The notes below the pieces were generated by a model. The model did not search any database. It worked only from the letters and a program-made list of their open reading frames with translations, and was not told where the DNA came from. The position numbers were made by a program, and so were the translations under genes. A DNA stretch of 36,803 nucleotides from Candidatus Rokuibacteriota bacterium (GTDB lineage: Bacteria; Methylomirabilota; Methylomirabilia; Rokubacteriales; CSP1-6). This document shows positions 4,477 through 25,898 of the stretch, piece by piece. Within the stretch, counting starts at the first letter, position 1, and each line of letters opens with the position of its first letter. Location: NCBI GenBank assembly GCA_003220435.1, contig QHSL01000012.1, positions 1 through 36,803 of the forward strand, given 5' to 3'.

Positions 4477-5429
4477 AGGTCGATCGGGTCACCGAGCGGA
4501 GCCGCGAGATCCTGGAAACCCTCGCCCGCATCATCGTCGGCAAGGGTGAGGTGCTCGAGCGCATCCTCGCCGGCATCCTCGCGAACGGCCACGTGCTGAT
4601 CGAAGACTATCCGGGCCTCGCCAAGACGCTGATCGCCCGCCTGTTCGCACAGGCGCTGGATCTGTCCTTCAAGCGCCTGCAGTGCACACCCGACCTCCTT
4701 CCGGCGGACGTCACCGGGAGCTTCCTGTTCGACCAGCGCGAGGCCAAGTTCGAGTTCCGCCCGGGCCCGGTGTTCACGCACCTCTTGCTGGCCGACGAGA
4801 TCAACCGGGCGACGCCGAAGACCCAGGCCGCGCTGCTGGAGGCGATGCAGGAGGCGCAGGTGACGGTGGAGGGGGAGTCCTTCCGGCTCGATCCACCGTT
4901 CCTGGTCATCGCAACGCAGAACCCGATCGAGCTCGAGGGAACGTATCCACTGCCGGAGGCTCAGCTCGACCGCTTCCTGATCCGCGTGGCGATCGGCTAC
5001 CCGAGCTCCGACGAAGAGCGGCAGATCCTCGAGCGGCGGCGTGGGCGACGCCAGGACGAGGTCGAGGTGAGCGCCGTCGTGTCCCGCGCCGAAGTTCTGG
5101 CCATGCAGCAGGCGCTCGAGGACGTGTTCGTCGCGGATGTCATCATGCAGTACGTGGTGGACCTGGTCCAGGCGACGCGCGCCGACCACCGGGTCGCGCT
5201 GGGCGCCTCGCCGCGTGGCGCGCTGGCGCTGCTCAAGCTCACGCGCGCCTTCGCGGTGCTGCGGGGACGTGACTTCGTCACGCCGGACGACGTGAAGGCG
5301 ATGGCCGGGCCGGCCCTCGCCCATCGCCTCATTCTCCAGCCCGAGCTCTGGGTGACGAAGCTGTCGTCGGCCCAGGTCGTGAGCGATCTCCTGACGCAGG
5401 TCCCCGCGCCGCCGACCGACGTCCGATGA
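4473..5429 (+). CDS. MoxR-family AAA+ ATPase
   Basis: A 318-residue AAA+ protein. The Walker A region reads E-D-Y-P-G-L-A-K-T (residues 44-52), with Asp where MoxR proteins usually have Gly. Walker B is L-L-A-D-E-I-N-R-A, followed by KTQAALLEAMQE. The sensor region ATQNPIELEGTYPLPEAQLD is a MoxR signature. The C-terminal lid ends in L-G-A-S-P-R-G and D-F-V-T-P-D-D-V-K. MoxR ATPases act as chaperones that insert cofactors or assemble complexes, often with DUF58 and VWA partners. The GTG start at 4473 overlaps the upstream stop by 4 nt, and the stop overlaps the DUF58 ATG (ATGA). Confidence 0.93.
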   Translation: MKVDRVTERSREILETLARIIVGKGEVLERILAGILANGHVLIEDYPGLAKTLIARLFAQALDLSFKRLQCTPDLLPADVTGSFLFDQREAKFEFRPGPVFTHLLLADEINRATPKTQAALLEAMQEAQVTVEGESFRLDPPFLVIATQNPIELEGTYPLPEAQLDRFLIRVAIGYPSSDEERQILERRRGRRQDEVEVSAVVSRAEVLAMQQALEDVFVADVIMQYVVDLVQATRADHRVALGASPRGALALLKLTRAFAVLRGRDFVTPDDVKAMAGPALAHRLILQPELWVTKLSSAQVVSDLLTQVPAPPTDVR

Positions 5430-6700
5430 CCACCCGTCTCACCCCGCTCGTGCTGTCCGTCACGACGGTCGGCGCGTGGGGACTCGTCCTGGCGGTGTTC
5501 TCGGGCCGAGCCGAGCTGGTCGTCGTCGTGTTGCCTCTGCTGCTCGCGCTCCTCGTGACGTCGCGGACCACGGCGCCGCCCGACTGGTCGATCGCGCACA
5601 CGATCTCGGCGGAGCGGGTCTTCGAGGGCGAGCGGGTCACGGTCACGGTGACCGTGGTCGCCGGCCAGGCGGTGGCGCTGCTGGAGCTGTTCGAGCCGCT
5701 GCCGCCGGGAATGCGGGTGGTCGGCGGCCACAACCGCGGGTTCTTCACGCTGGCCCGGGGACAGCGCGTCGAATGGAAGTACGAGGTCGAGTGCGTGCGC
5801 CGCGGTCGCGTGAGCCTGGGTACCATGCACGCGCGCTGGTGGGACCGCGCCGGCTTTCACGCCGGCGAGACGGCGATGCGCGCCCCGTGGCAGCTGCGCG
5901 TGTACCCGAGCGTGCTTCCGCTTCGCCGTCTTCCCGGCCCGCGGCGAACGCAGAGCTCGGTGGGCAACTACGTGGCGCCGAGCGTCGGCGAAGGACTCGA
6001 GCCCGGCGACATCCGGGAGTTCGTCCCCGGCGATCGGGTCCGGCACGTGAACTGGCGAGCCTCGCTCCGGTTCGGGCGCCTCTTCGTCACGCAATACCAT
6101 CTCGAGCGCAACGCGGATGTGATCCTGATGCTCGACACGCTCGCCGAGGCCGGGGCGGCGCCCGACACGACGGTCGACGCCTCGATTCGGGCGGCGGCGG
6201 CCCTCGCGACGGCGTACCTGGCCCGGAAGGATCGCGTCGGCCTCATCGAGTACTGCGGACCATTCCGGTGGGTCCGGCCGGACTCCGGGCGGGCGCACCA
6301 CGAACGGCTGCTCGAGGCGCTGCTCCGGGCCGACGTGATGTTCAGCTATGTGACCCAGGAGGTCGCGCTCGTCCCGCGGCGCGTGCTGCCGCCTCAAGCG
6401 CTCGTGATCGCGATCAGCCCGCTCCTCGACGCGCGCTTCGAGAAGGCGGTGGTCGATCTGGCGGCTCGCGGCTTCGACGTCATGGTCCTGAGCCCGTCAC
6501 CGATCCCGCTGGTCCGTCGCGCGCGCCGCGCCTCGCCCAGCGTCGACCTCGCGTGCCGGCTCTGGGCGCTCGAGCGGAAGGCCAGAGCGGAAGCGCTGCG
6601 CCGCCTCGGGATCGCCATCGTCGAGTGGAATCCGGCGGAGCCGCTTCAGGCCGCGCTCGGCGGGCTCGTCGGGGCGCGCCGACGCCGGGCGGCGCGCTGA
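5426..6700 (+). CDS. DUF58 domain protein (MoxR partner)
   Basis: A 424-residue protein with two N-terminal membrane helices (about residues 8-46). A beta-rich domain carries YEVECVRRGRVSLGT. The DUF58 signature lies near residues 189-212 (E-G-L-E-P-G-D-I-R-E-F-V-P-G-D, then V-N-W-R-A-S-L). The following VILMLDTLAEAG and later region resemble a von Willebrand A-like fold. DUF58 proteins accompany MoxR ATPases and DUF4129 proteins in envelope-related operons. The ATG at 5426 overlaps the moxR stop. No transglutaminase-like partner is found here, although many such clusters have one. Confidence 0.9.
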   Translation: MTTRLTPLVLSVTTVGAWGLVLAVFSGRAELVVVVLPLLLALLVTSRTTAPPDWSIAHTISAERVFEGERVTVTVTVVAGQAVALLELFEPLPPGMRVVGGHNRGFFTLARGQRVEWKYEVECVRRGRVSLGTMHARWWDRAGFHAGETAMRAPWQLRVYPSVLPLRRLPGPRRTQSSVGNYVAPSVGEGLEPGDIREFVPGDRVRHVNWRASLRFGRLFVTQYHLERNADVILMLDTLAEAGAAPDTTVDASIRAAAALATAYLARKDRVGLIEYCGPFRWVRPDSGRAHHERLLEALLRADVMFSYVTQEVALVPRRVLPPQALVIAISPLLDARFEKAVVDLAARGFDVMVLSPSPIPLVRRARRASPSVDLACRLWALERKARAEALRRLGIAIVEWNPAEPLQAALGGLVGARRRRAAR

Positions 6701-6702
6701 CG

Positions 6703-7200
6703 ATGCGTCACCTGACGGCCATGCTCGCCTGCGCGCTCGTGGCCTACCCGCTCCTGATCGCGCCCGTGACCTCCGTGCTGGTCATCGCTGCCATGGCGCT
6801 GGCCCTGTGCGCGCTCGGCTTCCTGCTGGGGACGCCACTGGTGGTCGCCGGCGCGGTACTCGCGCTCGTCGAGTATGCGCTGGCCCTCTGGCTTTCGGGT
6901 GCGCCGCCCCGGCTCGTCGGCGCCGCCCTCTTCGGCGTCGGCGTGACCCTGCTGCTCGAAACCGCAGACTTCGGTTGGCGAGCCCAGCGCGCGACGCTCG
7001 GTCCCGGGGTGGTCGCCTCGCAGATCCGGCACTGGGCCACCTTCGGCGTGATCGCGGGGACGAGCGCGCTGGTCGCGACCGGCGTCGCGAGCGCGGCCAG
7101 CGTCTCGGTGCGCCTGCCGTGGGCGCCCGCGCTGGCCGCCACCGGCGCCGCGGTCGCGCTCGTCGCCGTCGCCTTCGCCGTCCGCCGTCGCCGTCGATAG
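6703..7200 (+). CDS. hydrophobic membrane protein, last gene of MoxR operon
   Basis: A 165-residue, almost wholly hydrophobic protein with about five predicted membrane helices and an arginine-rich end (VRRRRR). No named family is recognised. The ATG lies 2 nt after the DUF58 stop, so it belongs to the same transcript. Its TAG stop lies within a hairpin (7196-7219) that may end transcription. Confidence 0.7.
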   Translation: MRHLTAMLACALVAYPLLIAPVTSVLVIAAMALALCALGFLLGTPLVVAGAVLALVEYALALWLSGAPPRLVGAALFGVGVTLLLETADFGWRAQRATLGPGVVASQIRHWATFGVIAGTSALVATGVASAASVSVRLPWAPALAATGAAVALVAVAFAVRRRRR

Positions 7201-7230: not shown

Positions 7231-8808
7231 AGGAGGCGGGAGTCGCGCACTGGAAGTTCGACGCGTCCGTGGTGCTTCCGTTCGGATCGATGAGTCGGCC
7301 CACCGATGATAGGGACAGAGCTTCCGCGTCATGTCGACTCGGCCCTGGCTGTTGACGTGGGCGGCGACGAGGGCTTCCGGCCGAACGCCTCGCTCGACCC
7401 AGTCCTCGAGGGCAGCGAGCGGATCGAACACGCTCGGGCCGGGCCCGCCTCCGCAGTGGTAGACCCCAGGCAGCATGTACAGACGGACGAAGTCGTCCCG
7501 CTGCGCGTTGCCGAGTTGTCCTCCCACGCGCTCGAAGTAATCGATGATCCCGAGCGCGGTGAGGGCGGCATCGTTCCATCCCTGCCAGAAGATGAGCTTG
7601 CCGCCACGGTTCTTGTAGGCGCTGAGGTCGGCGTTCGGCGAGTCCAGAATCGCGCCGATGGGGGCGAGGGTCGCCAGGTCGGTCTCGAAATTGAAATCGT
7701 GGAAATCGAACGTGCCATCGTCGTGGTCCGGGTAGGCCATGTACTTGAAGAACTCGCCGGCGAAGTCGTAGTGGAGGTTCGGATACCCGCCGTAGAGGTC
7801 CTCGGCGCTGAGGATCCACAGACTCCAGTTGTCGGCGCCGCCCTCGCCGCCGATCGGGAAGCCGTACCAGATCCGCCCGTCGATCGTGGAGGACGGGCCC
7901 GCATAGACGGCCTTGAGGGTGGCGAGCTCCGACGGGGTGAGGCAGTCCGTATCGCTCTCATGGCCCGCGGCGCAGACCGCGAGGTGGACGTCAGGATCGA
8001 AGGTGCACACGCGCGGGTCGTCGATGATGCCGTCGGTGATCCCATCAACCGCGTCACAGTTGGCGTTGACCCGCGACTCGATGTAGGCGAGCTTGGCCAG
8101 CGGCAGGGTTGGTGCCGAGAAATCGTTGCGGTCAGGGTACATCGCAACCTGGTTCCATGCGAAGCCGGTCATGAAGCGGGACCAGTAGAAGGCCGGCGCG
8201 CCGGCGATGAGGCCGCTGAAATCGTCCGGGTACCGCTGCGACTGCATCATGGCCTGTCCGCCCCCGCGCGAGCATCCCGAGAAGTACGAGAACCGGGCCG
8301 GGGCACCGAAGAACAGCTGGACGATCTCCTTCGCCGCCACCACCGAGACGTGTACGCCCTGGTAGCCGAAGTCGACGACTCTGGTCGGATGGTCCTGGGC
8401 CCAGCTCGCCGCGGCCCCGCTGGCCTGGTGGCCGGTGTCGGTTCCCGCCGCAGCGTATCCGCGGCCCAGGGGACTCTCGAGGTCGACCGGAATCGACCCG
8501 GCGAAGCCCCCGTTGCCGGCGAACAAGAGCTTGCCGTTCCACCCCTCCGGGAGGTTCACCGCGAAATTGACCTGGTTGAATCCGTCGACGTTGTTGCCGG
8601 TGGTGACGAACCCGGCGACGTGGCAATACGCGGGGACGGTATGGGTGGCGTGGACCCAGGACGCAGAAACGAGCGTCGAGTTGACGAGCTTCGGCAGCTT
8701 GGCCAGCTTGCGGCACTGGAGAGCCGGCGTCGGAGCCGTCAGCGCATCGCTCGACAATGACGTCGCGAGCCACAGCAGCGTTGTTATCGCTGCGCAAAGC
8801 TTGCGCAA
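7229..8808 (-). CDS. secreted tannase/feruloyl esterase family protein, apparent frameshift near C-terminus
   Basis: A tannase-family esterase with a signal peptide (RKLCAAITTLLWLATSLSSDA). The catalytic serine lies in G-C-S-R-G-G-G (about residue 180), the acid is probably in the Q-G-W-N-D-A segment, and the histidine is in G-V-Y-H-C-G-G-G. The Cys-Ser and His-Cys neighbours match the family's CS-D-HC disulphide arrangement. It would hydrolyse phenolic esters outside the cytoplasm. The main frame reads L-C-P-Y-H-R-W; a one-base deletion near 7305-7308 breaks it. The next frame gives the expected end V-G-R-L-I-D-P-N-G-S-T-T-D-A-S-N-F-Q-C and a TAA at 7231-7229. Uncorrected, the frame continues to about 6646. 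AGGAGG abuts the GTG at 8817 but lies 9 nt from a TTG at 8808, so TTG is preferred. Confidence 0.82.
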
Positions 8809-8983: not shown

Positions 8984-9916
8984 ATGACGACCATCGCCCC
9001 CGAGACGAAGGCAGTGTTCGCGGCGGAGCACGACGCACCGATCCCCTACATGCAGCGGACGCGCGACTACTACATGGCGCTCGGCTACAGACCGTACCGC
9101 TGGGCCCACTTCGTCGACGTCCCGTTCACGCCGCTGCCGGCGCCGCTCGGCCGCGCGCGGGTGGCCCTGGTCACGACCGCCGCGCCCTTCCAGCCGGAGG
9201 CGGGCGACCAGGGACCGGGTGCCCCCTACAACGCCGGCGCCAAGTTCTACAAGGTGTATTCGATCCCCACCGCGAGCGTGCCGGATCTACGGATCTCGCA
9301 CGTCGGCTACGACCGCCTGCACACGACGGCCGCGGACATCAACACCTACCTGCCGCTGGCCCGCATGAAGGAGGCGGCCGCGGCCGGGCGGATCGGAACG
9401 CTGGGGCCGCGCGTCCACGGCGCGCCGACGAACCGCAGCCACCGGGTGACGATGGAGGCCGATGTCCCGGAGATCCTGCGCCGCTGTCAGGAAGACGGCG
9501 TCGACGCGGCCGTGCTCGTCCCGAGCTGACCGGTGTGCCACCAGACCGTGAGTCTGGTCGCCCGGCACCTGGAGGCCAACGGCGTGGCGACAGTGATCAT
9601 GGGCTGCGCGAAGGACATCGTCGAGCACTGCGGGGTCCCGCGCTTCCTGTTCAGCGACTTCCCGCTCGGCAACTCGGCCGGCCGGCCGTTCGACGGCGAC
9701 GCCCAGGCGCACACCCTCGAGCTCGCCCTGCGAGTCCTCGAGAGCGCGCCGGGAGCCCGCACCACCGTGCAGTCGCCGCTGCGCTGGAGCGCGGACGCGT
9801 CCTGGAAGCTCGACTACCTCGACCTGACGAAGCTCTCGCCGGAGAAGATCGCGGAGCGTCGCAAGGAGTTCGACGAGGTGAAATCGATCGCCCGCGGCAA
9901 GCGCGAGGCGTCGTGA
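8984..9916 (+). CDS. selenoprotein-B-like reductase family protein with in-frame UGA (Sec182)
   Basis: The frame opens at ATG 8984 (GGAGGAG about 8 nt upstream), meets a TGA at 9527-9529 and continues in the same frame to 9916. Read as selenocysteine, the product has 310 residues. The junction is V-L-V-P-S-U-P-V-C-H-Q-T-V, a UxxC redox motif (U182, C185) like that of glycine/sarcosine/betaine reductase component B and D-proline reductase PrdB. Upstream D-R-L-H-T-T-A-A-D-I-N and downstream sequence (ARHLEANG, then GVPRFLFSDFPLGN) both match the family and would be lost by termination. A SECIS-like hairpin follows the UGA. Its stop overlaps the CoA-transferase start (GTGA). Substrate is unknown; a reductive C-N or similar bond cleavage is suggested only by family. 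Confidence 0.85.
9530..9570 (+). promoter_or_regulatory. SECIS-like hairpin just after UGA
   Basis: ACCAGAC (9540-9546) pairs perfectly with GTCTGGT (9552-9558) around a CGTGA loop. GGTG/CACC can extend the base. The loop G-U begins about 18 nt after the UGA, in the usual window for a bacterial SelB-binding SECIS. Confidence 0.65.
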
Positions 9917-11106
9917 GCAAGCCGTTCACGGGCGTTCGCATTCTCGACTTCACCCGCTACCTGGCGGGGCCGTACGGAACCTACCAGCTGGCGCTGCTCG
10001 GCGCCGTCGTGCTCAAGATCGAATCGCGCGAAGGCGACGACACGCGCGGACAGCTCGCCGACCGCACGTGGGCCGAGCGGAAGATGGCGCCGTCGTTCCT
10101 GGCGGTGAACGGCAACAAGCGCTCGATCACCCTCGACCTCCGGCGGAAGGAGGCCGTGGAGATCGTCATGCGGCTGGTGGTCGGCGCCGACGTCGTGTGG
10201 GAGAACTTTCGTGGGGGCGTCATGGAGCGGCTCGGGCTCGGCTACGACGCGCTCGCGGCCGTCAATCCGCGGCTCATCTATTGCTCGGTCTCCGGCTTCG
10301 GCCAGACCGGGCCCGAGCGGACGACCGCCGCCTTCGACGGCAAGCTGCAGGCGATGTCCGGGATCATGTCGATCACCGGCGAGCCGGCCCACGGCCCGAC
10401 CCGCGCCGGGTTCGCGATCTGCGACACGATCGGCGGGATGACCGCGGCGCTGGCCGTCGCCAGCGCGCTGTTCCAGCGCACGCACACCGGGCGCGGCCAG
10501 CTCGTGGACGTCGCGATGCTGGACGCGGCGCTGGCGTTCATCCCCGGGACGGTGTCCGAGTACACCGTCGCCGGCATCGAGGCGAAGCAGATTGGCAACG
10601 GTTCGGTGAGCCGCAAGCCGACCGCGAGCCGGTTCCGCGCGCGCGACGGCTACCTCGTGCTGGCGGTGCTCACCGAGAAGCAGTTCGCCGGCCTCATGAA
10701 GACGCTCGGGCGAGCCGACGCGCTCGAGGACCCGCGGTTCAAGGACTGGCCGGCGCGCACCGCGAACGAGCCGGCCCTGCGCGAGATCATCGAGGCCGCG
10801 CTGGCCAGCGACACGCCGAAGAGCTGGGAGGCGCGGCTGACCGCCGCCGACGTGCCGTGCGGCGCCATCTGGAAGATCGACGAGATCGTCCGCCATCCGC
10901 AGCTCGAGCACCGCGACGTGCTGCAGACGATCGACTCGCGCTACGGGCCGATGCGGCTGGTCGGCGCCGGGTTCCGGCTCGCCCACGGCAGCCCTGGTCT
11001 CGACCGCCAGCCGCCGACGCTCGGCGAGCACACCGACGAGATCCTGAAGGAAGCGGGCTACGGCGCCGACGAGATCGCGCGGTTGCGGCGCGACGGGGTC
11101 ATCTAG
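9913..11106 (+). CDS. CaiB/BaiF family (class III) CoA-transferase
   Basis: A 397-residue class III CoA-transferase. The N-terminus VRILDFTRYLAGPY, the E-N-F-R-G-G-V-M-E-R-L-G-L-G segment and the catalytic Asp in A-I-C-D-T-I-G-G (D171) are standard, and length is typical. It moves CoA between a donor thioester and a carboxylic acid via an aspartyl-CoA intermediate. The GTG start at 9913 overlaps the selenoprotein stop, so the two are translated together. That suggests the acid activated here is the substrate or product of the selenoprotein step. The substrate cannot be read from the sequence. Confidence 0.92.
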   Translation: MSKPFTGVRILDFTRYLAGPYGTYQLALLGAVVLKIESREGDDTRGQLADRTWAERKMAPSFLAVNGNKRSITLDLRRKEAVEIVMRLVVGADVVWENFRGGVMERLGLGYDALAAVNPRLIYCSVSGFGQTGPERTTAAFDGKLQAMSGIMSITGEPAHGPTRAGFAICDTIGGMTAALAVASALFQRTHTGRGQLVDVAMLDAALAFIPGTVSEYTVAGIEAKQIGNGSVSRKPTASRFRARDGYLVLAVLTEKQFAGLMKTLGRADALEDPRFKDWPARTANEPALREIIEAALASDTPKSWEARLTAADVPCGAIWKIDEIVRHPQLEHRDVLQTIDSRYGPMRLVGAGFRLAHGSPGLDRQPPTLGEHTDEILKEAGYGADEIARLRRDGVI

Positions 11107-15381: not shown

Positions 15382-16353
15382 ATGAAAGCGATCGTCTTCG
15401 ACCAAGTAGGCGGCCCTGAAGTCCTGGCGCTGGCCGACGTGCCGAAGCCCCAGGTACGGTCGGGCGGTGTGCTGATCAAGAGCCACGCGATCGGGGTGAA
15501 CTTCGCCGACACGCGCTTTCGACAGGGACTGTACACCGTGCCGGCCAAGCCGCCCGACACGCCGGGGATGGAGGCGGCGGGCGTGATCGAGGCGGTCGGC
15601 GAGGGCGTCACGCATCTCCGTCCGGGAATGAGGGTGGCGGCGTTCTCGAGCAAGGCGTACGCGGAGTACTGCTCGAGCCCGGCCTTCATGGTCGTGCCGC
15701 TGCCGGACGCCGTGAGCTTCAACGATGGCGCCGCCTTGCTGATCCAGGTGCTGACGGCTTACCACTTGCTGCACACCGTCGGCTCGACGGGCCCCGGCAG
15801 CAGCGTGCTGGTCCACTCGGCGTCCGGCGGTGTAGGGCTGGCGGCGGTGCAGCTGGCCAAGGCCGTGGGCGCCCGCGTGTTCGGGACAGTCTCGAACGAC
15901 GCCAAGATCGGCCTGGCCAAGGCGAACGGCGCCGACGCGGTCATCAACTACACCAGGGATAAGTTCGCCGACGAGGTGCTGAGACTGACCGACGGTCGCG
16001 GGGTCGACCTCATCCTGGACGCGGTCGGCAAGCCAACGTTCGAGGAGGGGCTACGGTGTCTGGCGCCCTTCGGGCACCTGGCGCTCTACGGACGCTCGGG
16101 CGGCGCCACCGACCCGCTCAACGTCGCCACGCTGTCGCCGAAGTCGCTGAAGGTGAGCGGCTTCTCGCTGCCGACGATCACACGGAACTTCCCTGACAAG
16201 ACCCGCGAGAGCGCGGATCGCTGCTTCGCGCTCCTGCGTGAAGGCAAGCTGAAGCTGCACATCGACAAGACGTTCCCGCTGTCCCAGGCGGCCGACGCCC
16301 ATCGCTACCTCGAATCGCGGCAGTCGACCGGAAAGCTCCTCCTGATCCCGTAG
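15382..16353 (+). CDS. zinc-independent NADPH:quinone oxidoreductase family protein
   Basis: A 323-residue medium-chain dehydrogenase/reductase of the quinone oxidoreductase type. The start is M-K-A-I-V-F, with V-N-F-A-D-T-R and P-D-T-P-G-M-E-A-A-G-V-I-E in the catalytic domain. The nucleotide-binding motif is S-A-S-G-G-V-G-L-A-A-V-Q, and the end is SRQSTGKLLLIP. The usual zinc ligands are absent. It would transfer hydride from NADPH to quinones or enones. GGGAGG 5 nt before the ATG supports the start. It stands alone, facing away from the cupredoxin gene. Confidence 0.92.
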   Translation: MKAIVFDQVGGPEVLALADVPKPQVRSGGVLIKSHAIGVNFADTRFRQGLYTVPAKPPDTPGMEAAGVIEAVGEGVTHLRPGMRVAAFSSKAYAEYCSSPAFMVVPLPDAVSFNDGAALLIQVLTAYHLLHTVGSTGPGSSVLVHSASGGVGLAAVQLAKAVGARVFGTVSNDAKIGLAKANGADAVINYTRDKFADEVLRLTDGRGVDLILDAVGKPTFEEGLRCLAPFGHLALYGRSGGATDPLNVATLSPKSLKVSGFSLPTITRNFPDKTRESADRCFALLREGKLKLHIDKTFPLSQAADAHRYLESRQSTGKLLLIP

Positions 16354-16361
16354 CCTCTCGC

Positions 16362-16459
16362 CGCGCCTCAGCCGGCGGGGCCTGTTCGTATCGCTCGCCT
16401 CGGGCCTGGGGGCCCCAGCCCCCGGGCGGCCCTGCGGCTCGCACTGCGGCCCCGCGACG
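16362..16459 (-). repeat. GC-rich intergenic palindromic repeat, long form, copy 1
   Basis: 98 bases that match 25801-25898 at all but about three positions. They contain CTGGGG-G-CCCCAG and other nested palindromes. The core is shared in shorter form with 18004-18056, 36132-36180 and 36522-36568. It lies between converging genes. Confidence 0.85.
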
Positions 16460-16471
16460 CATCACGACGCG

Positions 16472-17404
16472 TCAGGGACGCAGCGGGATCAAGGGCGGCC
16501 CGGCGACGATCCGGTTGGCGATGCGCCCGAGACGCTCGACCTCGTAGACGATCTCGTCGCCGACGGCCAGCCATGGGTAGGCGGCGGCGTCGCGCGTTCG
16601 CAGCTCGGCCAGACAACCGTTGCCGCACGTGCCCGTCCCCAGCACGTCACCCGCGCAAACCTTGGTCCCCCGGGACGCGTACGCGATGATCTCGCCGATG
16701 GACCAGAAGGCGTTCGACCAGCGGTCGCGGCCGTACTCGCGACCGTTGACCGAGACGACCATCTCGAGGTCGTAGCCCATCTGGCGCCGCCACGGCTCGA
16801 TCTCGTCCTTCGTCACGAGCCACGGGCCGAGCGTCGTCGCCGTGTCCTTGCCCTTGGCCGGACCGAGCCGCATCTCCATCTCGTTGCGCTGCACGTCGCG
16901 GGCGCTCCAGTCGTTGAACAGGCAGAAGCCCACCACGTGATCGGCGGCGTTCTTCGGCTCGAGGTTCGAGCCGTCGCGCCCGATGACCACGCCGATCTCG
17001 CACTCGAAATCGAGGTTCTGGCAGCCCGGCGGCATCGGGACCGGATCGTGGGCGCCGACCAGAGCGTGGGGGTTCGTGAAATAGAAGACCGGGATCTCGA
17101 AGAACTGCGTGGGCAGCTCGAGCCCCTGGGATTTCCGAATGGACTCGATGTGCTGGCGGAACGTCATGAAGTCGCGCACCGCCGGCGGCCGCGAGATCGG
17201 CGGGAGCAGCCGCACGCGGTCGACCCGCACCACTTCGGCAGGGGACGCGAGGGTCTTGGCGCCGGCGGCGGCGAGTCGCTCGCCGTCGTCCCCGAGCAGG
17301 TCGATCAGCCGCGGCCCCGCGGCCATCGCGTAGATCTCGTCGCCTCGCACCACGCCGATCCGCTCCGTGGGGGCGGAAGGAACCTGGAAGGTCGCCCAAC
17401 GCAT
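16472..17404 (-). CDS. fumarylacetoacetate hydrolase family protein
   Basis: A 310-residue FAH-family enzyme. The metal-binding region D-F-E-C-E-I-G-V-V-I-G-R and the following G-F-C-L-F-N-D-W-S-A-R-D match the conserved E...E...D site. The C-terminal T-G-T-C-G-N-G-C-L-A-E-L and L-A-V-G-D-E-I-V-Y-E-V-E segments are typical. Family members hydrolyse or decarboxylate diketo-acids from aromatic or sugar catabolism. The ATG at 17404 has AGGAGA 7 nt upstream. The adjacent remnant of an enoyl-CoA hydratase suggests it once belonged to a longer degradative operon. Confidence 0.9.
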   Translation of the reverse strand: MRWATFQVPSAPTERIGVVRGDEIYAMAAGPRLIDLLGDDGERLAAAGAKTLASPAEVVRVDRVRLLPPISRPPAVRDFMTFRQHIESIRKSQGLELPTQFFEIPVFYFTNPHALVGAHDPVPMPPGCQNLDFECEIGVVIGRDGSNLEPKNAADHVVGFCLFNDWSARDVQRNEMEMRLGPAKGKDTATTLGPWLVTKDEIEPWRRQMGYDLEMVVSVNGREYGRDRWSNAFWSIGEIIAYASRGTKVCAGDVLGTGTCGNGCLAELRTRDAAAYPWLAVGDEIVYEVERLGRIANRIVAGPPLIPLRP

Positions 17405-17453
17405 GAGAGTCTCTCCTAATCTGCCGACCGTGAAATGCGGCCCGTGTCCGTCG

Positions 17454-17910
17454 CTACCGGCCCGTGAACCGGGGCACCCGGCCCTCGCGATGCGCCGAGG
17501 CACCCTCGTCGATGTCGCGTTCGAGCCTCCTGAAGCAGGCGCTCCGAAGGGTACGCCGCCAGGACGAGCCCGAGCCGCTCCATCTCGGCGGCGTCCACCT
17601 CACGGCCGGTACAGATGAGCTCGAGCGCCCGCGCCCGGCCGACGATCCCGGCAGCCGCACGGGACCGCCCGCCCCGGGAAACCCGCCTCACAGCGCCTCC
17701 GGCACCGCCCACGTCGCGTGGCTCGCCGCCAGACGGATATCGCACGCCAGTGACATCTCGGCCGCGCCCGCGCGCGCGGCGCCGTTGAGCGCGGCGATGA
17801 CGGTCTGCGCCTCGAGCGCGTCGTAGAGGCGGTTGGCGGTCCGCACCAGCTCGAGGATCTGCTCCTTGGTGTAGGTCGCGCGGACCACCGGGCTGAGAAT
17901 CCGATCCCGA
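17454..17910 (-). pseudogene. decayed enoyl-CoA hydratase/isomerase
   Basis: Pieces of a crotonase-fold protein occur in successive frames. The segment from 17888 down to a stop at 17688 reads EAQTVIAALNGAARAGAAEM then SLACDIRLAASHATW. A second frame gives I-V-G-R-A-R-A-L-E-L-I-C-T-G-R-E-V-D and M-E-R-L-G-L-V. A third gives LERDIDEGASAHREGRVPRF to a TAG at 17456-17454. A further shift lies near 17888, and the N-terminal third is missing. With at least three lesions this is a non-functional remnant rather than a sequencing error. Confidence 0.8.
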
Positions 17911-18003
17911 GCTCATCGTCGCCACGATCACCTCCGCCCCGTTCCGGGGTCCGGCTAGACTACCAACTCACCTTGACGCCGTCGAGCGCGCCAGTGCAGT
18001 CTG

Positions 18004-18056
18004 CAGTGCGAGCCGCAGCCCGTCGCGGGGCTGGGGTCCCGCCGGGCGAGGCGAGC
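18004..18056 (+). repeat. GC-rich intergenic palindromic repeat, short form, copy 2
   Basis: Shares the ordered blocks GCGAGCCGCAG, GGGGCTGGGG and GGCGAGGCGAGC with the reverse complement of the long copies at 16362 and 25801. It lies just before the CoA-transferase leader. Confidence 0.7.
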
Positions 18057-18081
18057 TTATATATATGAAGGAGCTCTCTCC

Positions 18082-19287
18082 ATGACCGAGCGTGATGGGC
18101 AGCTCGACGGCGTTCTCGCGGGAACGCGCGTCCTCGACTTCGGGCGCTACATCGCGGGGCCCTACTGCGCCGCGCTCCTGGCGGACCTGGGTGCCGACGT
18201 GATCCGTATCGAGCGCCGCGGGGGCGGCGAGGATCGCCGGGTCGCGCCGGTGGCCGCCGACGGCGCGGGCGCGCTCTATCTGGTGATGAACCGCAACAAG
18301 CGCGCGATGACCCTCGACCCGGCCTGCCCCGAGGGGCGCGAGATCGTCCGCAAGCTCGTGGCGACCGCCGACGTCGTCGTCGCCAATCTGCCCCCTGAAG
18401 TCTTGAAGTCGCTCGCGCTCGACTTGGAGAGCCTGCGTCGCGTCAAGCCCGACATCATCCTGACCACGGTGACCGCGTTCGGCGCCGGCGGCCCGTGGAG
18501 CCATAAGCACGGCTTCGACGGGATCGGCCAGGTGATGTGCGGCTCGGCCTACCTGACCGGCACGCCCGAACAGCCGCTACGCGCGGCGGTGGCCTGGGTC
18601 GACTGCGGTACCGCGTCGCTCGCCGCGTTCGGCACGCTGGCGGCGCTCATGGCGCGCGGCAAGACGGGGCGGGGCCAGAAGGTCGAGGGCGCGCTGCTCC
18701 GCACCGCGGTCGCATTCAACAATCCAACGCTCGTCGAGCAGCAGGTGGTCCAGCCCAACCGGGTGGCCACGGTGAACCGCGGGCAGACGTCGGCGCCGTC
18801 GGACCTGTACCGCACGCGGGACGGCTGGATCCTCACCGCCGCGATCGGCGAGCCGATGTTCGCGCGCTGGGCGGCGCTGATGGGCGAGCCGCACTGGCTC
18901 GGCGACCCGCGGTTCAAGGACGACCTCTCGCGCGGTGACCATGGCGAGGCCATCTCCAAGCGCATGTCGGAGTGGACCGCGACCCGCACGACGGCGGAGG
19001 CGCTGGCCGGACTGGAGGGGGCGAGGATCCCGGCGGCGCCGCTCTACTCGCCGCAGCAAGCGCTCGAGGACGACCACATCCGCGCCGCCAGGCTCCTCGA
19101 GGACACGGACTATCCGGGCCTCGCGCACAAGGCGCCGCTGGCGCCGACGCCGGTGGACCTGTCAGAGACACCCGGGCGCTACCGTCACCGGGCGCCGACG
19201 ATCGGCGAGCACACCGCGGAGATCCTGACCGAGCTCGGTTACGATCGCGCGGCGATCGCCGGCCTGGAGTCCCGCGGGGTAGTCTGA
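18082..19287 (+). CDS. CaiB/BaiF family (class III) CoA-transferase
   Basis: A 401-residue class III CoA-transferase. The N-terminus is TRVLDFGRYIAGPYCAALLA and the catalytic aspartate is D174 in W-V-D-C-G-T-A-S-L. The C-terminus P-T-I-G-E-H-T-A-E-I-L matches the family. AAGGAG precedes the ATG by about 8 nt. It differs clearly from the 9913-11106 enzyme, so it is not a recent duplicate. It is monocistronic and converges on the MFS gene with one base between the stop codons. Confidence 0.93.
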   Translation: MTERDGQLDGVLAGTRVLDFGRYIAGPYCAALLADLGADVIRIERRGGGEDRRVAPVAADGAGALYLVMNRNKRAMTLDPACPEGREIVRKLVATADVVVANLPPEVLKSLALDLESLRRVKPDIILTTVTAFGAGGPWSHKHGFDGIGQVMCGSAYLTGTPEQPLRAAVAWVDCGTASLAAFGTLAALMARGKTGRGQKVEGALLRTAVAFNNPTLVEQQVVQPNRVATVNRGQTSAPSDLYRTRDGWILTAAIGEPMFARWAALMGEPHWLGDPRFKDDLSRGDHGEAISKRMSEWTATRTTAEALAGLEGARIPAAPLYSPQQALEDDHIRAARLLEDTDYPGLAHKAPLAPTPVDLSETPGRYRHRAPTIGEHTAEILTELGYDRAAIAGLESRGVV

Positions 19288-19288
19288 A

Positions 19289-20503
19289 TCAAATCCTCCG
19301 CACGCGCGGGAACGTCAGCGCGGCGGCGCCGGCCACAGCCGTGAGCGCGAGTCCGCTGGCGCCGAGAGCGATGCTGACGCCGAACAGCGATGCGAGCGCG
19401 CCGACCTGGAGCTGGCCGAGCGGCGCCAACCCGATCGCCACCACCCAGGCGCCGCCCGCGCGCCCGCGGAGCCGCTCGGGCACGCTGAGCTGCATCAGGC
19501 TCTGCGAGAGCAGGTCCGAGACGGCGCCCAGCGCGTTCACCGCGATCAGCACGACGACGACGCCCGCGAAACCCACGACACGCGGCGCCACGCCGAGCGT
19601 GATCACGCTTGCGCCGAAGGCCAGCAGCACCGCCAGGAACAAGGTCCCGCTGCCTCGCACCGGGCCGCGCGCCCCGACGGCGAAGAGGCCGAGGATTCCG
19701 CCGACCGCGCGCGCCGCGTTCATCGTGCCGAGCCCCTCGGGCCCGACGCGGAGGATGTCGCGCGCCAGGCTTGGGAGCAGGGCCTGGTGCGAGAAGCCGA
19801 GGATCTCGGCGCCGGCGGTGAGGAGCATCAGCACGGGCAGGATCCGATCGGTCCGCATCGCGGTGACGAACCCGACGACGCCCTGCCACAGCGAGCCGGC
19901 CGCGGCCCGCCGGATGCCCGTGGGCGTCGAGGCCGGCAGGAGCGCGGCGGCGCCCGCCAGATAGCCCACTGCGACCGCCAGGTACGCGACACCGGAGCCG
20001 AGGTGCGCGATGACCACGCCGGCGCCGAGCGAACCGAGCAGCCAGCCCGAGCGCATCGCGACGCCCAGCAGCGCGAGCGCGTTGATCAGCTCCTTCGGAC
20101 CCACGACGTCATGGGTGTAGCTCTGCCGGGCCGCCCACTCGATGCCGCGGATGACCCCCGCGACGAGGGTCAGCAGCAGGAGGTGGGTGAAGCTCATGCG
20201 CCCGGCGAGCATCAGCCCCCCGAGCGCGGCGCTCGTGAGCGCCTGGCCGGCGCCCGTCAGCATCAGCAGGCGGTGGCGCGGAAATCGATCGGCGAGGACG
20301 CCGGCAGGCGCACCGACGAAGAAGAGCGGCAGCGCCCTCATCCCGAGCGCCACGCCCACCAGGAACGGCGAGCTGGTCAGCTCGAGCGCCAGCCAGCCGA
20401 GCACGACGACCTCGCCCATCGTCCCCACGGCGTTCAGAATCATGGAGCTCCCGAGGCAACGGAAGTCCCGGAGGCGGACGAGAGAGAGCCGGGCGATGGT
20501 CAT
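19289..20503 (-). CDS. MFS transporter (EntS/DHA3-like)
   Basis: A 404-residue protein of about 12 hydrophobic helices. The conserved loop after helix 2 reads P-A-G-V-L-A-D-R-F-P-R-H-R, the MFS motif G-x-x-x-D-R-x-x-R. The sequence character (V-G-V-A-L-G-M-R-A-L-P) fits the MFS_3/EntS group of exporters. It probably exports a small organic molecule across the inner membrane. The ATG at 20503 has no clear ribosome site, so a start a few codons away is possible. Confidence 0.85.
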   Translation of the reverse strand: MTIARLSLVRLRDFRCLGSSMILNAVGTMGEVVVLGWLALELTSSPFLVGVALGMRALPLFFVGAPAGVLADRFPRHRLLMLTGAGQALTSAALGGLMLAGRMSFTHLLLLTLVAGVIRGIEWAARQSYTHDVVGPKELINALALLGVAMRSGWLLGSLGAGVVIAHLGSGVAYLAVAVGYLAGAAALLPASTPTGIRRAAAGSLWQGVVGFVTAMRTDRILPVLMLLTAGAEILGFSHQALLPSLARDILRVGPEGLGTMNAARAVGGILGLFAVGARGPVRGSGTLFLAVLLAFGASVITLGVAPRVVGFAGVVVVLIAVNALGAVSDLLSQSLMQLSVPERLRGRAGGAWVVAIGLAPLGQLQVGALASLFGVSIALGASGLALTAVAGAAALTFPRVRRI

Positions 20504-20597
20504 GGTCTGGGGCGGGCGAGCACGATCGTCCTCGGACTCTCCGGCGCTGTCAAGGCGCCGGCGAGGGAGCGGACGCGGTCGGCTATACTCGCCCCCG

Positions 20598-21251
20598 ATG
20601 GCCCAGGGGACGGGACCGGCGGCGAGTGTGGTCGAGGATCGCGTGATCCCGCCCGGCCAGTGGTGGGCGCGCGTGATCGCGCGTGGGCACACGCTCCGGA
20701 TCGTCGATCTCGAGGGCAAGCAGGCCGTGGACTTCCTCTGCTACAACGCCGCAAACCCGGAGGAGCGCTACAACGCGGCGGACACGATGAAGTACGCGAA
20801 GACGATCTTCCTCACCCGGGGCCACGGCATCTACTCGGACCTGGGCCGCCGCCTGTTCACGATCGTCGAGGACACCTGCGGCCGTCACGACACGATCGGC
20901 GGCTGCTGCAGCGCCGAGAGCAACGAGGTCCGCTACGGGGTGAAGGACTCACCGAGCTGCCGGGCGAACTTCCGCCGTGCCCTGGCCGCCTTCGGTCTGG
21001 GGCCCAAGGACATCGTCGCGAATCTCAACTTCTTCATGAACGTCCCGGTGGACGCCGACGGGGCCATGGGGATCGTGGACGGGCTCTCGAAGGCAGGGGA
21101 CTACGTGGACCTGAGGGCCGAGATGGACGTGCTGGCGGTGATCTCCAACTGTCCACAGGTATACAACCCGTGCAACGGCTTCAACCCGACGCCGATCCGG
21201 GTGGTGGTGACGGAGGGGACTACCGGGCGAACGCCGGCGTCCCCGCGATGA
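20598..21251 (+). CDS. DUF1989 / urea-carboxylase-associated family protein
   Basis: A 217-residue protein. The conserved part includes R-I-V-D-L-E-G-K-Q-A-V-D-F, the metal-site-like E-D-T-C94-G-R-H97-D98-T, then G-G-C-C-S-A-E-S-N, and a C-terminal N-G-F-N-P-T-P-I-R-V. This is the DUF1989 family, found beside urea carboxylase in other genomes; the reaction is not established. TATACT at 20584-20589 lies 8 nt before the ATG and no Shine-Dalgarno is present, so the mRNA may be leaderless. Its last 32 nt overlap the end of the opposite-strand VOC gene. Confidence 0.85.
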   Translation: MAQGTGPAASVVEDRVIPPGQWWARVIARGHTLRIVDLEGKQAVDFLCYNAANPEERYNAADTMKYAKTIFLTRGHGIYSDLGRRLFTIVEDTCGRHDTIGGCCSAESNEVRYGVKDSPSCRANFRRALAAFGLGPKDIVANLNFFMNVPVDADGAMGIVDGLSKAGDYVDLRAEMDVLAVISNCPQVYNPCNGFNPTPIRVVVTEGTTGRTPASPR

Positions 21252-21729
21252 CCTCGTCCCACGGCCCGGGGAAGCGTCCCTTGTCGCCGGTGCCCGAGAA
21301 GGGCCTCTCCCGGCGCCATTCGCGCCGTGGCTGCTCGTAGTACACCTCGAGCCCGTTCCCGTCGGGATCCGAAAAGTAGACCCCGATCGAGACCGTGTGG
21401 TCCGAGACGCTGACCGGCACGCCCTTGTCCTTGAGCCTGAGGTAGATCTCCTTCAGATCGTCGAGGCATCCCATCCGCCAGGCGAAGTGGTTCAGCCCGA
21501 CCTGCCGCTTCTGTGGCCCCGGGGCATCCTCGCCGACCTCGAAGAGCGCGATGTCGTGGGCGTGGGCTGGGTCGCAGGCCAGAAACACCGCCCGCAGCTT
21601 GCCGGTGTCCTTGAAATACATCGTGTCCTGGGTGTGGAGCCCGAGGATGTCGGTGTACCAGCGGTGCGACTGCTCGGCGTTACGCACGAAGATATTCACG
21701 TGATCCAGGGAAACCGGCTTGTAGGACAT
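21220..21729 (-). CDS. VOC superfamily (glyoxalase/dioxygenase-like) protein
   Basis: A 169-residue vicinal-oxygen-chelate protein with paired beta-alpha-beta-beta-beta modules. It starts S-L-D-H-V-N-I-F-V. The likely metal ligands are that His, a second in V-G-L-N-H-F-A-W and a Glu in D-P-D-G-N-G-L-E-V-Y-Y-E. The layout fits ring-cleaving dioxygenases and glyoxalase-type lyases; no substrate can be assigned. AAGGAG precedes the ATG at 21729. It converges on and overlaps the DUF1989 gene. Confidence 0.88.
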   Translation of the reverse strand: MSYKPVSLDHVNIFVRNAEQSHRWYTDILGLHTQDTMYFKDTGKLRAVFLACDPAHAHDIALFEVGEDAPGPQKRQVGLNHFAWRMGCLDDLKEIYLRLKDKGVPVSVSDHTVSIGVYFSDPDGNGLEVYYEQPRREWRRERPFSGTGDKGRFPGPWDEVIAGTPAFAR

Positions 21730-21810
21730 GTTCCTCTCCTTCCGGCTCGATGGGCGTAGCGCAGTATACCGCACGGGGCTTCACGTCGTCCGATTCAGGC
21801 ATTCGCCTGA

Positions 21811-21872
21811 TTGTCCCCTCGGAAATCGGCTTCACAATTTCACCATTAAGTTTCACACATAGGGAGGTGACC
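21811..21872 (+). promoter_or_regulatory. AT-rich leader with repeated TTTCAC motifs
   Basis: In the 143-nt divergent spacer, TTCACA (21831), TTTCAC (21838) and TTTCAC (21851) occur in an island much richer in A/T than its surroundings, just before the AGGGAGG ribosome site. It may be an operator or promoter for the activator gene. No clear -24/-12 or -35/-10 pair is seen. Confidence 0.35.
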
Positions 21873-22862
21873 GTGGGCATCGAGGACCTGGCGCTGCAAG
21901 AGCCGCTCCTCGACGGGAGCCGCCAGATGCGGGCCATTCAGGCGGTCGTCGCGAGCGTCGCGGACACGGACGCGACCGTGTTGATCCGCGGTGAGAGCGG
22001 GGTGGGCAAGGACGTCGTGGCCCGTACTATTCACGCCGCCTCCTCCCGCCGCGACCGACAGTTCGTCAAGGTCAACTGCGCCGCCATTCCGCCCGGGCTT
22101 CTCGAGTCCGAGCTCTTCGGCCACGAGCGGGGCGCGTTCACCGGTGCCCACCGGCGCAAGCTCGGACAGTTCGAGATGGCGAATCGAGGGACGATCTACC
22201 TGGACGAGGTCGGCGAGCTACCGCCGGCGCTCCAGGCCAAGCTGCTGCACGTGCTCCAGGACCTGCGCTTCTGCCGCGTGGGGGGATACGGGCTGGTCGA
22301 CGTGGACGTGCGGGTGATCTCGGCGACCAACGGCAACCTGGAGGCCGCGATGGCCCGCGGCCAGTTCCGCCAGGACCTCTACTACCGGCTCAACGTCGTG
22401 GAGATCCTGGTACCGCCCCTGCGCGAGCGGTCGGAGGAGATACCTCTGCTCGCGTCGGCCCTGCTCGCGCGGTTCAACCGACAATACGGACGAACGAAGG
22501 AGCTTTCACCCGAGACGGCGGCTCGCCTCACGGCATATTCGTGGCCGGGCAACGTCCGGGAGCTGGAGAACGTCATGCGACGTCTTGTGGTGCTCCCCGA
22601 CGGGGAGCAGGCGTTCGAGACACTGGTCGCACACGACCGGAACGGGCACGCCTGGGCGGCCCACGCTCCGGCCCACAACTTGAAGCACGTGGCGCGGCGC
22701 GCCGCGGGAGAAGCTGAGCGCCGGGCCATCGTGGAGGTCCTCGAGCGCGTGGGCTGGAACCGCACCGAGGCCGCTCGCATCCTCAAGGTCAGCTACAAGA
22801 CGCTGCTGAACAAGATCGCCGAGCTCCGGCTCGCGCCGCCGCCGACCGCCCGCGCGCACTGA
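21873..22862 (+). CDS. sigma-54-dependent transcriptional activator without sensor domain
   Basis: A 329-residue enhancer-binding protein made only of an AAA+ core and a Fis-type helix-turn-helix. Walker A is G-E-S-G-V-G-K-D (40-47), the sigma-54 contact loop is G-A-F-T-G-A (87-92), and Walker B is I-Y-L-D-E-V-G. The arginine-finger and sensor region includes FRQDLYYRLNVVEILVPPLR. The HTH is N-R-T-E-A-A-R-I-L-K-V-S-Y-K-T-L-L-N-K-I near the end. There is no receiver, GAF or PAS domain, so it may be regulated by its level or by a partner, as in PspF-like proteins. GTG 21873 is chosen from AGGGAGG with 5 nt spacing. The downstream amidohydrolase is a possible target. Confidence 0.92.
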   Translation: MGIEDLALQEPLLDGSRQMRAIQAVVASVADTDATVLIRGESGVGKDVVARTIHAASSRRDRQFVKVNCAAIPPGLLESELFGHERGAFTGAHRRKLGQFEMANRGTIYLDEVGELPPALQAKLLHVLQDLRFCRVGGYGLVDVDVRVISATNGNLEAAMARGQFRQDLYYRLNVVEILVPPLRERSEEIPLLASALLARFNRQYGRTKELSPETAARLTAYSWPGNVRELENVMRRLVVLPDGEQAFETLVAHDRNGHAWAAHAPAHNLKHVARRAAGEAERRAIVEVLERVGWNRTEAARILKVSYKTLLNKIAELRLAPPPTARAH

Positions 22863-23020
22863 CCGCGGCGCTCCACGCCTCGTCCACGAGCGCGAAGCGA
22901 GGGTCTTCGGGTCACCCGGCTCTCCATCACCTCGAAGATGATGGGTCCGTGTTGCGGGTGGCCGTCAACACGCGGCCCTACTATACTTGGCACTTACCGC
23001 GCGGGAGGGGAGGAGACACG

Positions 23021-24007
23021 ATGCCCATGGTGAGCCGGCGAGTCATCAGATCGTACGAAGCGCGCTACTCGATGGGCGCCAACAAGGCGTCCATGTACGA
23101 CCTGACCGACGCGATCGACGTCCACGCCCACGCGCGCGGCCACGACGAGGAAGATCCGATGCACGCCGCGCAGGAGGCCAGCCGCGCCGGGATGAAGGCG
23201 ATCCTCTTCAAGAGCATCTCGCCCGGGCGTCCGTGGGAAGTGGCGCGCCAGCTCCAGGAGGACGTGGACCGCTGGGCCGAGCGCGAGGGGCTGCGGCCCG
23301 TGAAGTGCCTCTCCGCCTGGATCGTCGGCATTCCGCTGAAGCCCATCGACTTCGCCGAGATCAAGGCCGCGGTGGAGGGGGGCATCCTCGGGATGTGGAT
23401 GCCGCCGGTGACCTCGGCCTGGAGCATCTACCGCCTCGGCGGGCGCGGCGTCTGGTTCGACAAGTCACGGCGGTACGACGACGCGGTGCCACCGGTGGCC
23501 TGGGACGAGGCGCGCAAGACCGGGATCTACATCCTGGACGACCACGGCAAGCTGCTGCCGGCCGTCCGCGACACGGTCCGGCTCTGCGCCGATCACGGCG
23601 TGGCGCTGTCGTTCGGTCACCTCTCGCCGCAGGAGATGGACGCGCTGGCTGCGGAGATCGGCGCGATCGGGTTCCGCCGGGCGTTCATCGACCACCCGTT
23701 CAGCGAGGTGTTCGAGTTCGACGTGCCGACGATGAAGCGCTGGGCCGACGCCGGCGTGCGGTTCGCGCTCACCTGGGACGAGCTCTCGCCGCTGCTGGGC
23801 GTCGACACGCAGGACATGGTCGCGGCGATCCGCGCGATCGGCCCGGAGCACTTCATGCTGTCGAGCGACGCCGGCATCCCCCTGCTGCCGCAGACGGTCG
23901 AGGCGTACCGCCTGCTGGCGGCGATGCTCCGCGCCTACGGGATGACGGAGGTCGAGATGCGCCAGCTCATGACCGGTAGCGCCAAGGAGCTGCTGACCCT
24001 GTCCTGA
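23021..24007 (+). CDS. DUF6282-like metal-dependent amidohydrolase-type protein
   Basis: A 328-residue TIM-barrel-like protein. A-I-D-V-H35-A-H37-A supplies an HxH metal pair near the N-terminus. A lysine segment (M-K-A-I-L-F-K), S-F-G-H-L-S, F-I-D-H-P-F-S and L-S-S-D-A-G continue the amidohydrolase-like pattern. The family looks like DUF6282, whose reaction is not known. The ATG at 23021 has AGGAG about 7 nt upstream and TATACT 33 nt before that. It ends 16 nt from the converging UbiD gene. Confidence 0.72.
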   Translation: MPMVSRRVIRSYEARYSMGANKASMYDLTDAIDVHAHARGHDEEDPMHAAQEASRAGMKAILFKSISPGRPWEVARQLQEDVDRWAEREGLRPVKCLSAWIVGIPLKPIDFAEIKAAVEGGILGMWMPPVTSAWSIYRLGGRGVWFDKSRRYDDAVPPVAWDEARKTGIYILDDHGKLLPAVRDTVRLCADHGVALSFGHLSPQEMDALAAEIGAIGFRRAFIDHPFSEVFEFDVPTMKRWADAGVRFALTWDELSPLLGVDTQDMVAAIRAIGPEHFMLSSDAGIPLLPQTVEAYRLLAAMLRAYGMTEVEMRQLMTGSAKELLTLS

Positions 24008-24023
24008 GGGTTCACCGCCGCCT

Positions 24024-25430
24024 TCACATCAGAGACGCCAGGCGTGCCAGCAGCGTCTGGAGCGCCGGGTCCTCGGCGCCCTTCGGCTTGATCCGCGCGA
24101 ACTCCGCCCGCTCCTTGCCCCGCCAGAGGGGCGGCTTCGTCGCGTCGATCGCCATCTTGCCGCCGACCCGCATCACCGTCACCTCGGAGCGGTCCACGTT
24201 GGGCGCCGAGATGTCGAGCGGGTGGATGCGCTCGTGGGGGATCACGATCACGTCGCGCTCCGGGTTCACGCGCGTCGAGATCGCCCAGAAGAGCTCGCGC
24301 GGATCGTAAATGTTCACGTCCTGGTCGACGGCGATCGCGATCTTCGGGTGGAGATACGGGCTCGACAGCACGCCCAGCAGCACGTCGCGCGCCTGACCGT
24401 CCCAGCGCGGGGTCATCTGCACGAACACCGTGAACATCGTCACCCACGGCGGGATGTAGACGTCGTGGATCTCGGTACGGCCGTGGATCTCGCTGAGGCG
24501 CCGGTACAGGCTCGCCTCCATCGGCACCGAGACCAGGGGCTGGTGGTCGGTGAAGACCGTCGCCTGCATGTGGCGGTAGATCGCGTCCCGCCGCCGGGTG
24601 ATCGCCGTGACCTGGAACACGGGCGCTGGCCCCTCGGCGCCCTTGCTGTAGCCGGTGAACTCGCCGAACGGCCCCTCGGGCTCGCGCACGCCCGGCGGCA
24701 CGACACCCTCGATCACGATCTCGGCCTGCGCGGGGACCTCGAGGTCGATCGTCTCGCACTTCACCAGCTCGAGCGTCTCGCCCAGGACCCCCGCGCCCAT
24801 CTCGAGCTCGTCGTACCCTTCGTGCCGCCCGCTGAAGTTGGCGAGGATCTCGTAGCCGGGGTGGAGCCCGATCGCGAACGCCATCGGCGCCGGCTGGTTC
24901 CGCTCCTGGTACTTCATCAGGTGCGCCCAGTTGTGGCGCGCCGCCATCCAGAAGCCCATCTTCCGCGGTCCGCGCACGAGCGCCCGGATGATCGCCTCGT
25001 TGCGCACGCCGGTGTCCGGGTCCCGGGTGATCGTGACACCGGAGCCGAGGTAGCGGCCGGCGTCGCCCTCGGAGTGGATCGGGATCGGTAACCTTGTGAT
25101 GTCGGCGTCGTCGCCGAGGAGCTTCACTTCCTTGCACGGGCCGTCGGACACGAGCTTCGAGCCGCCGGGAACGCGCGTGAACATGCGATCGGAGAGCTCG
25201 CGCACGACGTTCTCCGGGCTGGTTCCGAGCGCCTTGGCCTGGCGCGCGCGGTCCTTCACCAGGACGTCGCAGAGCTTCCAGCCCGGGAAGCCCTTGAGGC
25301 GATTCAGCATGAGCGGCCGCGGGCTGGCCGAGCAGAGCGCGCCGGCCTGCGTGATGGGATCGATCTCGTCGTCGACGCGGATCAGGTCGTCGCCGAGGGC
25401 CTGGAGAAAGTCGCGAAGATTCAGTGCCAT
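24024..25430 (-). CDS. UbiD family (prenyl-FMN) decarboxylase
   Basis: A 468-residue UbiD-superfamily enzyme of usual length. The signature E-G-P-F-G-E-F-T-G-Y lies at residues 252-261. Other family marks are PIPIHSEGDAGRYL, the N-W-A-H-L-M-K-Y-Q segment and PWVTMFTVFVQM. These enzymes use prenylated FMN to decarboxylate or carboxylate aromatic or unsaturated acids. No UbiX partner gene is in the window, so the cofactor must be supplied from elsewhere. The ATG has GAGGAG 7 nt upstream. With the HpaB-type oxygenase divergently nearby it suggests an aromatic-acid route. Confidence 0.93.
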   Translation of the reverse strand: MALNLRDFLQALGDDLIRVDDEIDPITQAGALCSASPRPLMLNRLKGFPGWKLCDVLVKDRARQAKALGTSPENVVRELSDRMFTRVPGGSKLVSDGPCKEVKLLGDDADITRLPIPIHSEGDAGRYLGSGVTITRDPDTGVRNEAIIRALVRGPRKMGFWMAARHNWAHLMKYQERNQPAPMAFAIGLHPGYEILANFSGRHEGYDELEMGAGVLGETLELVKCETIDLEVPAQAEIVIEGVVPPGVREPEGPFGEFTGYSKGAEGPAPVFQVTAITRRRDAIYRHMQATVFTDHQPLVSVPMEASLYRRLSEIHGRTEIHDVYIPPWVTMFTVFVQMTPRWDGQARDVLLGVLSSPYLHPKIAIAVDQDVNIYDPRELFWAISTRVNPERDVIVIPHERIHPLDISAPNVDRSEVTVMRVGGKMAIDATKPPLWRGKERAEFARIKPKGAEDPALQTLLARLASLM

Positions 25431-25503
25431 CGTCGTCTCCTCACGCGCGCGGTCGCATCACCGCGGTTGTAACAACCCGAGATCGCGGAGTCAAACCGCG
25501 GCG

Positions 25504-25779
25504 CTACTTCGCCTTGTCCCCACCTCCGGCCGCTTGCAGCGTGACGTCGTCGCCGACGATCAGGAAGATCACCTCGCCGTTCGAGGCCTTGTAGCGCCAG
25601 GTCTCGAGCGGGCCGAGCTTGGTGATGTCGTCGGGCTTGCCGAGCACCCGCTCGAGGTCGGCGCGCCGGGAGATGTCCCGGGCCTTCGCGACGATGTCTT
25701 CCTTCGTCCCTCGGCCGCATGCCACCAGCCCCAGCATGACCGACGCGCACAGGAGCGCTCTCAGCGTCGTCACCGTCAT
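25504..25779 (-). CDS. small lipoprotein
   Basis: A 91-residue protein with a lipoprotein signal: basic start, hydrophobic core and lipobox L-V-A-C-G (Cys21). The mature part, I-S-R-R-A-D-L-E-R-V-L-G-K-P-D-D-I then W-R-Y, recalls the SmpA/BamE-type fold (helices followed by a G-x-P-D turn and strands), but the match is weak. GAGGTG precedes the ATG. It lies upstream of ubiD in the same direction with a 73-nt gap. Confidence 0.7.
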   Translation of the reverse strand: MTVTTLRALLCASVMLGLVACGRGTKEDIVAKARDISRRADLERVLGKPDDITKLGPLETWRYKASNGEVIFLIVGDDVTLQAAGGGDKAK

Positions 25780-25800
25780 CGCGGCACCTCTGTTTGTGAC

Positions 25801-25898
25801 CGCGCCTCGGCCCGCGGGGCCTGTTCGTATCGCTCGCCTCGGGCCTGGGGGCCCCAGCCCCCGGGCGGCCCTGCGGCTCGCACTGGGGCCCCGCGACG
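25801..25898 (-). repeat. GC-rich intergenic palindromic repeat, long form, copy 3
   Basis: 98 bases nearly identical to 16362-16459 (about three differences). It lies between the divergent lipoprotein and hydroxylase genes. Confidence 0.85.

Follow-up and report, generated by a model that had tools for sequence, protein, structure and literature searches.

The question raised by this locus is whether a TGA codon that interrupts a reading frame in the window (the whole stretch of 36,803 nucleotides that was analysed, from Candidatus Rokuibacteriota bacterium, a member of the uncultured Rokubacteria group from soil) is read as selenocysteine (Sec), and what the resulting protein might do together with the product of the gene that overlaps its end. 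The features considered are as follows.

8984–9916, forward strand: predicted PrdB/GrdB-like selenoprotein gene, 310 aa, ATG start, TGA stop
9527–9529, forward strand: putative Sec codon (TGA) for residue 182, which opens the UxxC motif (UPVC)
9540–9558, forward strand: predicted bacterial SECIS apical hairpin, 7-bp stem (9540–9546/9552–9558), loop CGUGA (9547–9551) with G at the second position
9913–11106, forward strand: CaiB/BaiF family III CoA-transferase gene, 397 aa, starting with a GTG that overlaps the selenoprotein stop codon (TGA)

Reading frame, Sec codon and homologues

When the internal TGA is translated as U, the gene, which has a GGAGGAG-like ribosome-binding site immediately upstream of its start, encodes 310 residues ending in ...KREAS ahead of the TGA at 9914–9916. 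The internal TGA is in frame and lies in the motif S-U-P-V-C-H-Q-T, where it takes the first position of UxxC, as the original prediction had it. Family homology was also said to cross this codon without a change of frame, and it is indeed unbroken in all homologues compared. Standard stop-codon handling splits the gene in two: genetic code table 11 yields open reading frames at 8984–9529 (181 aa) and 9533–9916 (127 aa), just as had been expected of automatic annotation.

Every Rokubacterial orthologue found (71–91% identity, both halves conserved) has TGA at the codon for residue 182. Since these orthologues come from separate assemblies, the codon is not a read error. In the homologues from Bradyrhizobium, Rhodopseudomonas, Roseomonas, and Haematobacter, this codon is TGC or TGT, and Cys occupies the Sec position in Bradyrhizobium and most other alphaproteobacteria. 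The alignment of Cys- and Sec-containing proteins that had been proposed as a check (26 sequences) contains only U or C at position 182 and an invariant C185; no third residue was found at position 182 among the homologues compared. At least three Sec/Cys changes have to be placed on the homologue tree, whose support is weak around the mixed alphaproteobacterial branches, and the Sec/Cys counts across homologues are phylogenetically non-independent. Among 17 chosen genomes, likewise not phylogenetically independent, SelA is present in all 7 with a TGA gene vs. 2 of the 10 with a Cys gene (one-sided Fisher test, approximately 0.002, relatedness ignored). Two alphaproteobacterial metagenome-assembled genomes (MAGs) possess SelA, yet have Cys at the Sec position, possibly as the result of recent Sec-to-Cys changes. 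No phage homologues of the selenoprotein were found; on plasmids, the homologues were firmicute PrdB proteins and two Cys forms from alphaproteobacteria.

SECIS hairpin and Sec machinery

The first stem base of the hairpin is 11 nt, and its loop 17 nt, from the UGA. The bacterial SECIS model (PMC13188914) describes a loop of 3–9 nt, a stem of 4–16 bp, a G in the first two loop positions, a distance of 16–37 nt from the UGA, and a minimum free energy (MFE) of −7.5 or lower. The hairpin, with a 5-nt loop, a 7-bp stem, G in second position, a distance of 17 nt, and −13.9 kcal/mol, fits this model, and the 7-bp structure with a CGTGA loop 11 nt past the UGA was recovered exactly where the original prediction placed it. 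In the single sequence it is modestly unusual against dinucleotide shuffles (z = −1.55). Its own seven pairs occur in 165 of 20,000 synonymous recodings (0.8%), and any stem of at least 7 bp that meets the loop rules occurs in 730 of 20,000 (3.7%). The MFE alone was rejected as evidence, not being unusual (516/3000). No Rfam match in the window reached the gathering score, and there was nothing meaningful near the TGA.

The hairpin becomes convincing because it is conserved across the TGA genes, the single-sequence statistic being weak. The five upper pairs form in all 36 distinct TGA genes, each of which also keeps the loop G, vs. none of the 65 Cys genes, where the loss of the two pairs closing the loop prevents all five from forming. 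The Ser residue that follows the loop is encoded by AGT in each of the 24 TGA genes that have Ser there; the share of AGT among Ser codons of the window genes is 2%. A compensatory change from A-U to U-A that preserves the stem was observed in 5 of 20 distinct rows, the U-A version belonging to a distant branch formed by class-level relatives and one same-family paralogue; such a two-sided change affects one stem pair only.

The Sec machinery, for which the original prediction had suggested a search, is present in the source genome (95.5% complete). The genes selA (569 bits) and selB (351 bits) adjoin on contig 138, with a tRNA-Sec (UCA anticodon) beside them, and selD (341 bits) is located on contig 100 (66727–67671) and itself contains an in-frame TGA, which is a known feature of SelD. 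In the search of relatives, selA scored above the cut-off in 57 of 59 genomes.

That the TGA encodes another residue (general recoding, e.g., to Trp) or is a sequencing error has a negligible probability: nothing was found in its favor except the TGA itself, whereas the exchange partner is Cys only, tRNA-Sec, SelA, SelB, and SelD are all present, TGA is also the stop codon of this very gene, and separate assemblies agree. A true stop, in a locus that is either a decaying pseudogene or a pair of separate genes, is very unlikely. Table 11 does give two open reading frames, and the codon at 9533 happens to be GTG, but TGA is shared at this codon by all Rokubacterial orthologues found, with both halves conserved, Cys takes its place elsewhere, and the SECIS is conserved. 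The locus 8984–9916 is thus, with high confidence as far as sequence comparison goes, a real selenoprotein gene with the UGA at 9527–9529 read as Sec, and we infer that Sec is actually inserted there. The original reading of this codon was supported along all three routes by which it might have failed (missing Sec machinery, another residue at position 182, a read error), none of which refuted it. A firm, conserved selenoprotein is thereby added to Rokubacteria, for which the literature search found no paper describing selenoproteins.

CoA-transferase partner and proposed chemistry

The product of the overlapping downstream gene matches Pfam CoA_transf_3 (PF02515) over its full length (E = 1.7e-112, residues 6–374). 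All substrate-specific equivalogs score below the cut-off; the nearest characterised enzymes are the succinate-glutarate, formyl/oxalate, and mesaconate CoA-transferases, each under its equivalog cut-off. The CoA-transferase gene is directly downstream in Rokubacteria (80–96% identity), Bradyrhizobium (55–58%), Desertibaculum (63%), and an Acetobacteraceae MAG (59%), and it is upstream of the selenoprotein gene in one divergent Rokubacterial paralogue. An adjoining copy is absent for the homologues in Rhodopseudomonas, Roseomonas, Haematobacter, and a Chloroflexia MAG, so a CoA-transferase gene nearby is not strictly required. In other groups the two genes again occur together, surrounded by unrelated genes; in Desertibaculum subflavum the pair lies at 5001–7114 among flagellar genes (FlgI at 860–2824, FlgH at 7830–8699), which suggests that it was inserted there as a unit. 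No other neighbour is conserved across groups among the matches listed, and no clue to the substrate was found in the gene surroundings beyond the pair. That the two genes stay paired in bacteria so far apart suggests an enzyme system.

Elsewhere in the window, a second family III CoA-transferase gene is located at 18082–19287 (forward strand), away from the selenoprotein gene. The region 20142–29408 contains genes for DUF1989, a sigma-54 activator, DUF6282, UbiD, an HpaB-type hydroxylase, and a hydrolase, and is possibly an aromatic-acid catabolic region.

In the AlphaFold model of the selenoprotein (pLDDT 81), the U182-x-x-C185 pair lies where a helix (185–198) begins after a strand (175–179), a common location for a catalytic thiol. 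Solved structures gave no clear match: the PDB sequence search returned no match, the best Foldseek hit has an E-value of 5.5e-3, and VIA Z-scores of up to 8.3 correspond to generic Rossmann-like domains, so any mechanism rests on distant homology. In the mechanism that we propose, the hairpin at 9540–9558 would recruit SelB carrying Sec-tRNA(Sec), and ribosomes would insert Sec at the UGA, so that the product is a PrdB-like alpha/beta protein that stands alone and carries the U182-x-x-C185 pair. If PrdB and GrdB (PMC13188914) and fluoroacetate reductase (PMC10838667) are taken as models, the Sec selenolate would most likely attack an electrophilic carbon of a small carboxylate and displace its substituent. 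A selenenyl-sulfide formed with C185, which would resolve the intermediate, could then be reduced by cellular thiols. Since the two genes overlap and stay together in several groups, a CoA thioester is probably the form in which the substrate or product is processed, and cleavage may be coupled to the formation or transfer of that thioester.

Such selenol-dependent cleavage, reductive and tied to an acid activated with CoA, is a tentative proposal. An alternative of some weight, though one we would not assume, accepts Sec but makes the protein a thiol oxidoreductase of general function, or else the partner subunit of an unlinked GrdE, the CoA-transferase gene being merely a co-inherited neighbour. 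It is favored by the homologues that lack an adjoining CoA-transferase and by a GrdE-like gene (PF09338) on contig 17 of the source genome, unlinked to the present locus and next to a GrdB-type selenoprotein gene; yet that gene already has a full-length GrdB-type neighbour, and the pairing with the CoA-transferase is retained in distant groups where the surrounding genes are unrelated, for instance the flagellar genes of Desertibaculum. The fuller reading, in which the overlapping genes encode an undescribed two-component reductive system of soil bacteria, is a possibility put forward with reserve. A stand-alone PrdB-like Sec (or Cys) reductase and a dedicated CoA-transferase would act, with no subunit of the PrdA/GrdE type, on a carboxylic acid that is CoA-activated or destined to be; the two genes would move between phyla as a unit, with Sec or Cys used largely according to the Sec machinery of the host. 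The literature search found no account of the Rokubacterial member with its CoA-transferase, although the pair may have been described before. The Cys orthologues in culturable Bradyrhizobium offer a means by which the function of the PrdB-like group could be found by genetics.

Relation to known selenoprotein systems

The original prediction called the product selenoprotein-B-like, which holds at the superfamily level, the protein passing the Pfam GRDB model (PF07355; 26.5 bits, cut-off 22). Closer assignment does not follow: the best curated NCBIfam match is PrdB (TIGR04483) with 93.5 bits, far short of the cut-off of 300, the glycine reductase protein B models also remain below theirs (TIGR01918/TIGR01917, 27.3 vs. 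65.45 and 25.4 vs. 602.2 bits), and the partner is a CoA-transferase instead of a glycine or proline reductase subunit. Passing the Pfam model and falling below the NCBIfam cut-offs, the protein was classified as a PrdB-like superfamily member rather than as PrdB or GrdB. The tree does not resolve how PrdB and two paralogues from the same genome are placed relative to the selenoprotein group.

Two further loci of the source genome belong to this superfamily. On contig 17 (approximately 15579–18078, reverse strand), the GrdE-like PF09338 gene is adjoined by the gene of a full-length GrdB-type protein with an in-frame TGA in its UGTCNRC motif; this is a glycine-reductase protein B in a genome where protein A (GrdA) was not found. 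Another candidate PrdB-like selenoprotein, bearing TPTUPNCTHT and a long extension at the C-terminus, is encoded on contig 82 (32009–32626, forward strand).

Compared with PrdB, the protein is homologous over residues 48–268, is similarly short, and has Sec in UxxC, but identity is approximately 30%, the motif is UPVCHQT rather than UGTCHRT/S, there are extra N- and C-terminal parts, and no PrdA gene adjoins. PF09338, which detects PrdA, matches just one gene of the source genome, the unlinked GrdE-like one. GrdB/F/H proteins have Sec at the homologous place, and the protein matches the C-terminal part of their profile (PF07355); however, it lacks the N-terminal half, its UPVC is without the third Cys of UxxCxxC, and its gene has no adjoining GrdE. 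GrdA had no match in the source genome, whereas it was matched in two clostridial control records.

The selenoprotein belongs to a known kind, the PrdB-like UxxC selenoproteins, which have appeared in catalogues along with homologues containing Cys since 2005 and were abundant in marine data (PMC1088965, PMC2398784). The "Proline reductase PrdB" of those marine metagenomes is likewise a UxxC protein of PF07355 with Sec and Cys members mixed; those studies gave sequence counts, whereas gene context, a SECIS comparison, and a conserved partner are given here. Fluoroacetate reductase FarB/FarE (PMC10838667) is similar in employing a GrdB-family selenoprotein for the proposed cleavage of a carbon–substituent bond in an acid other than an amino acid, but FarB is encoded with the GrdE-like FarE, whereas the partner here is a CoA-transferase.
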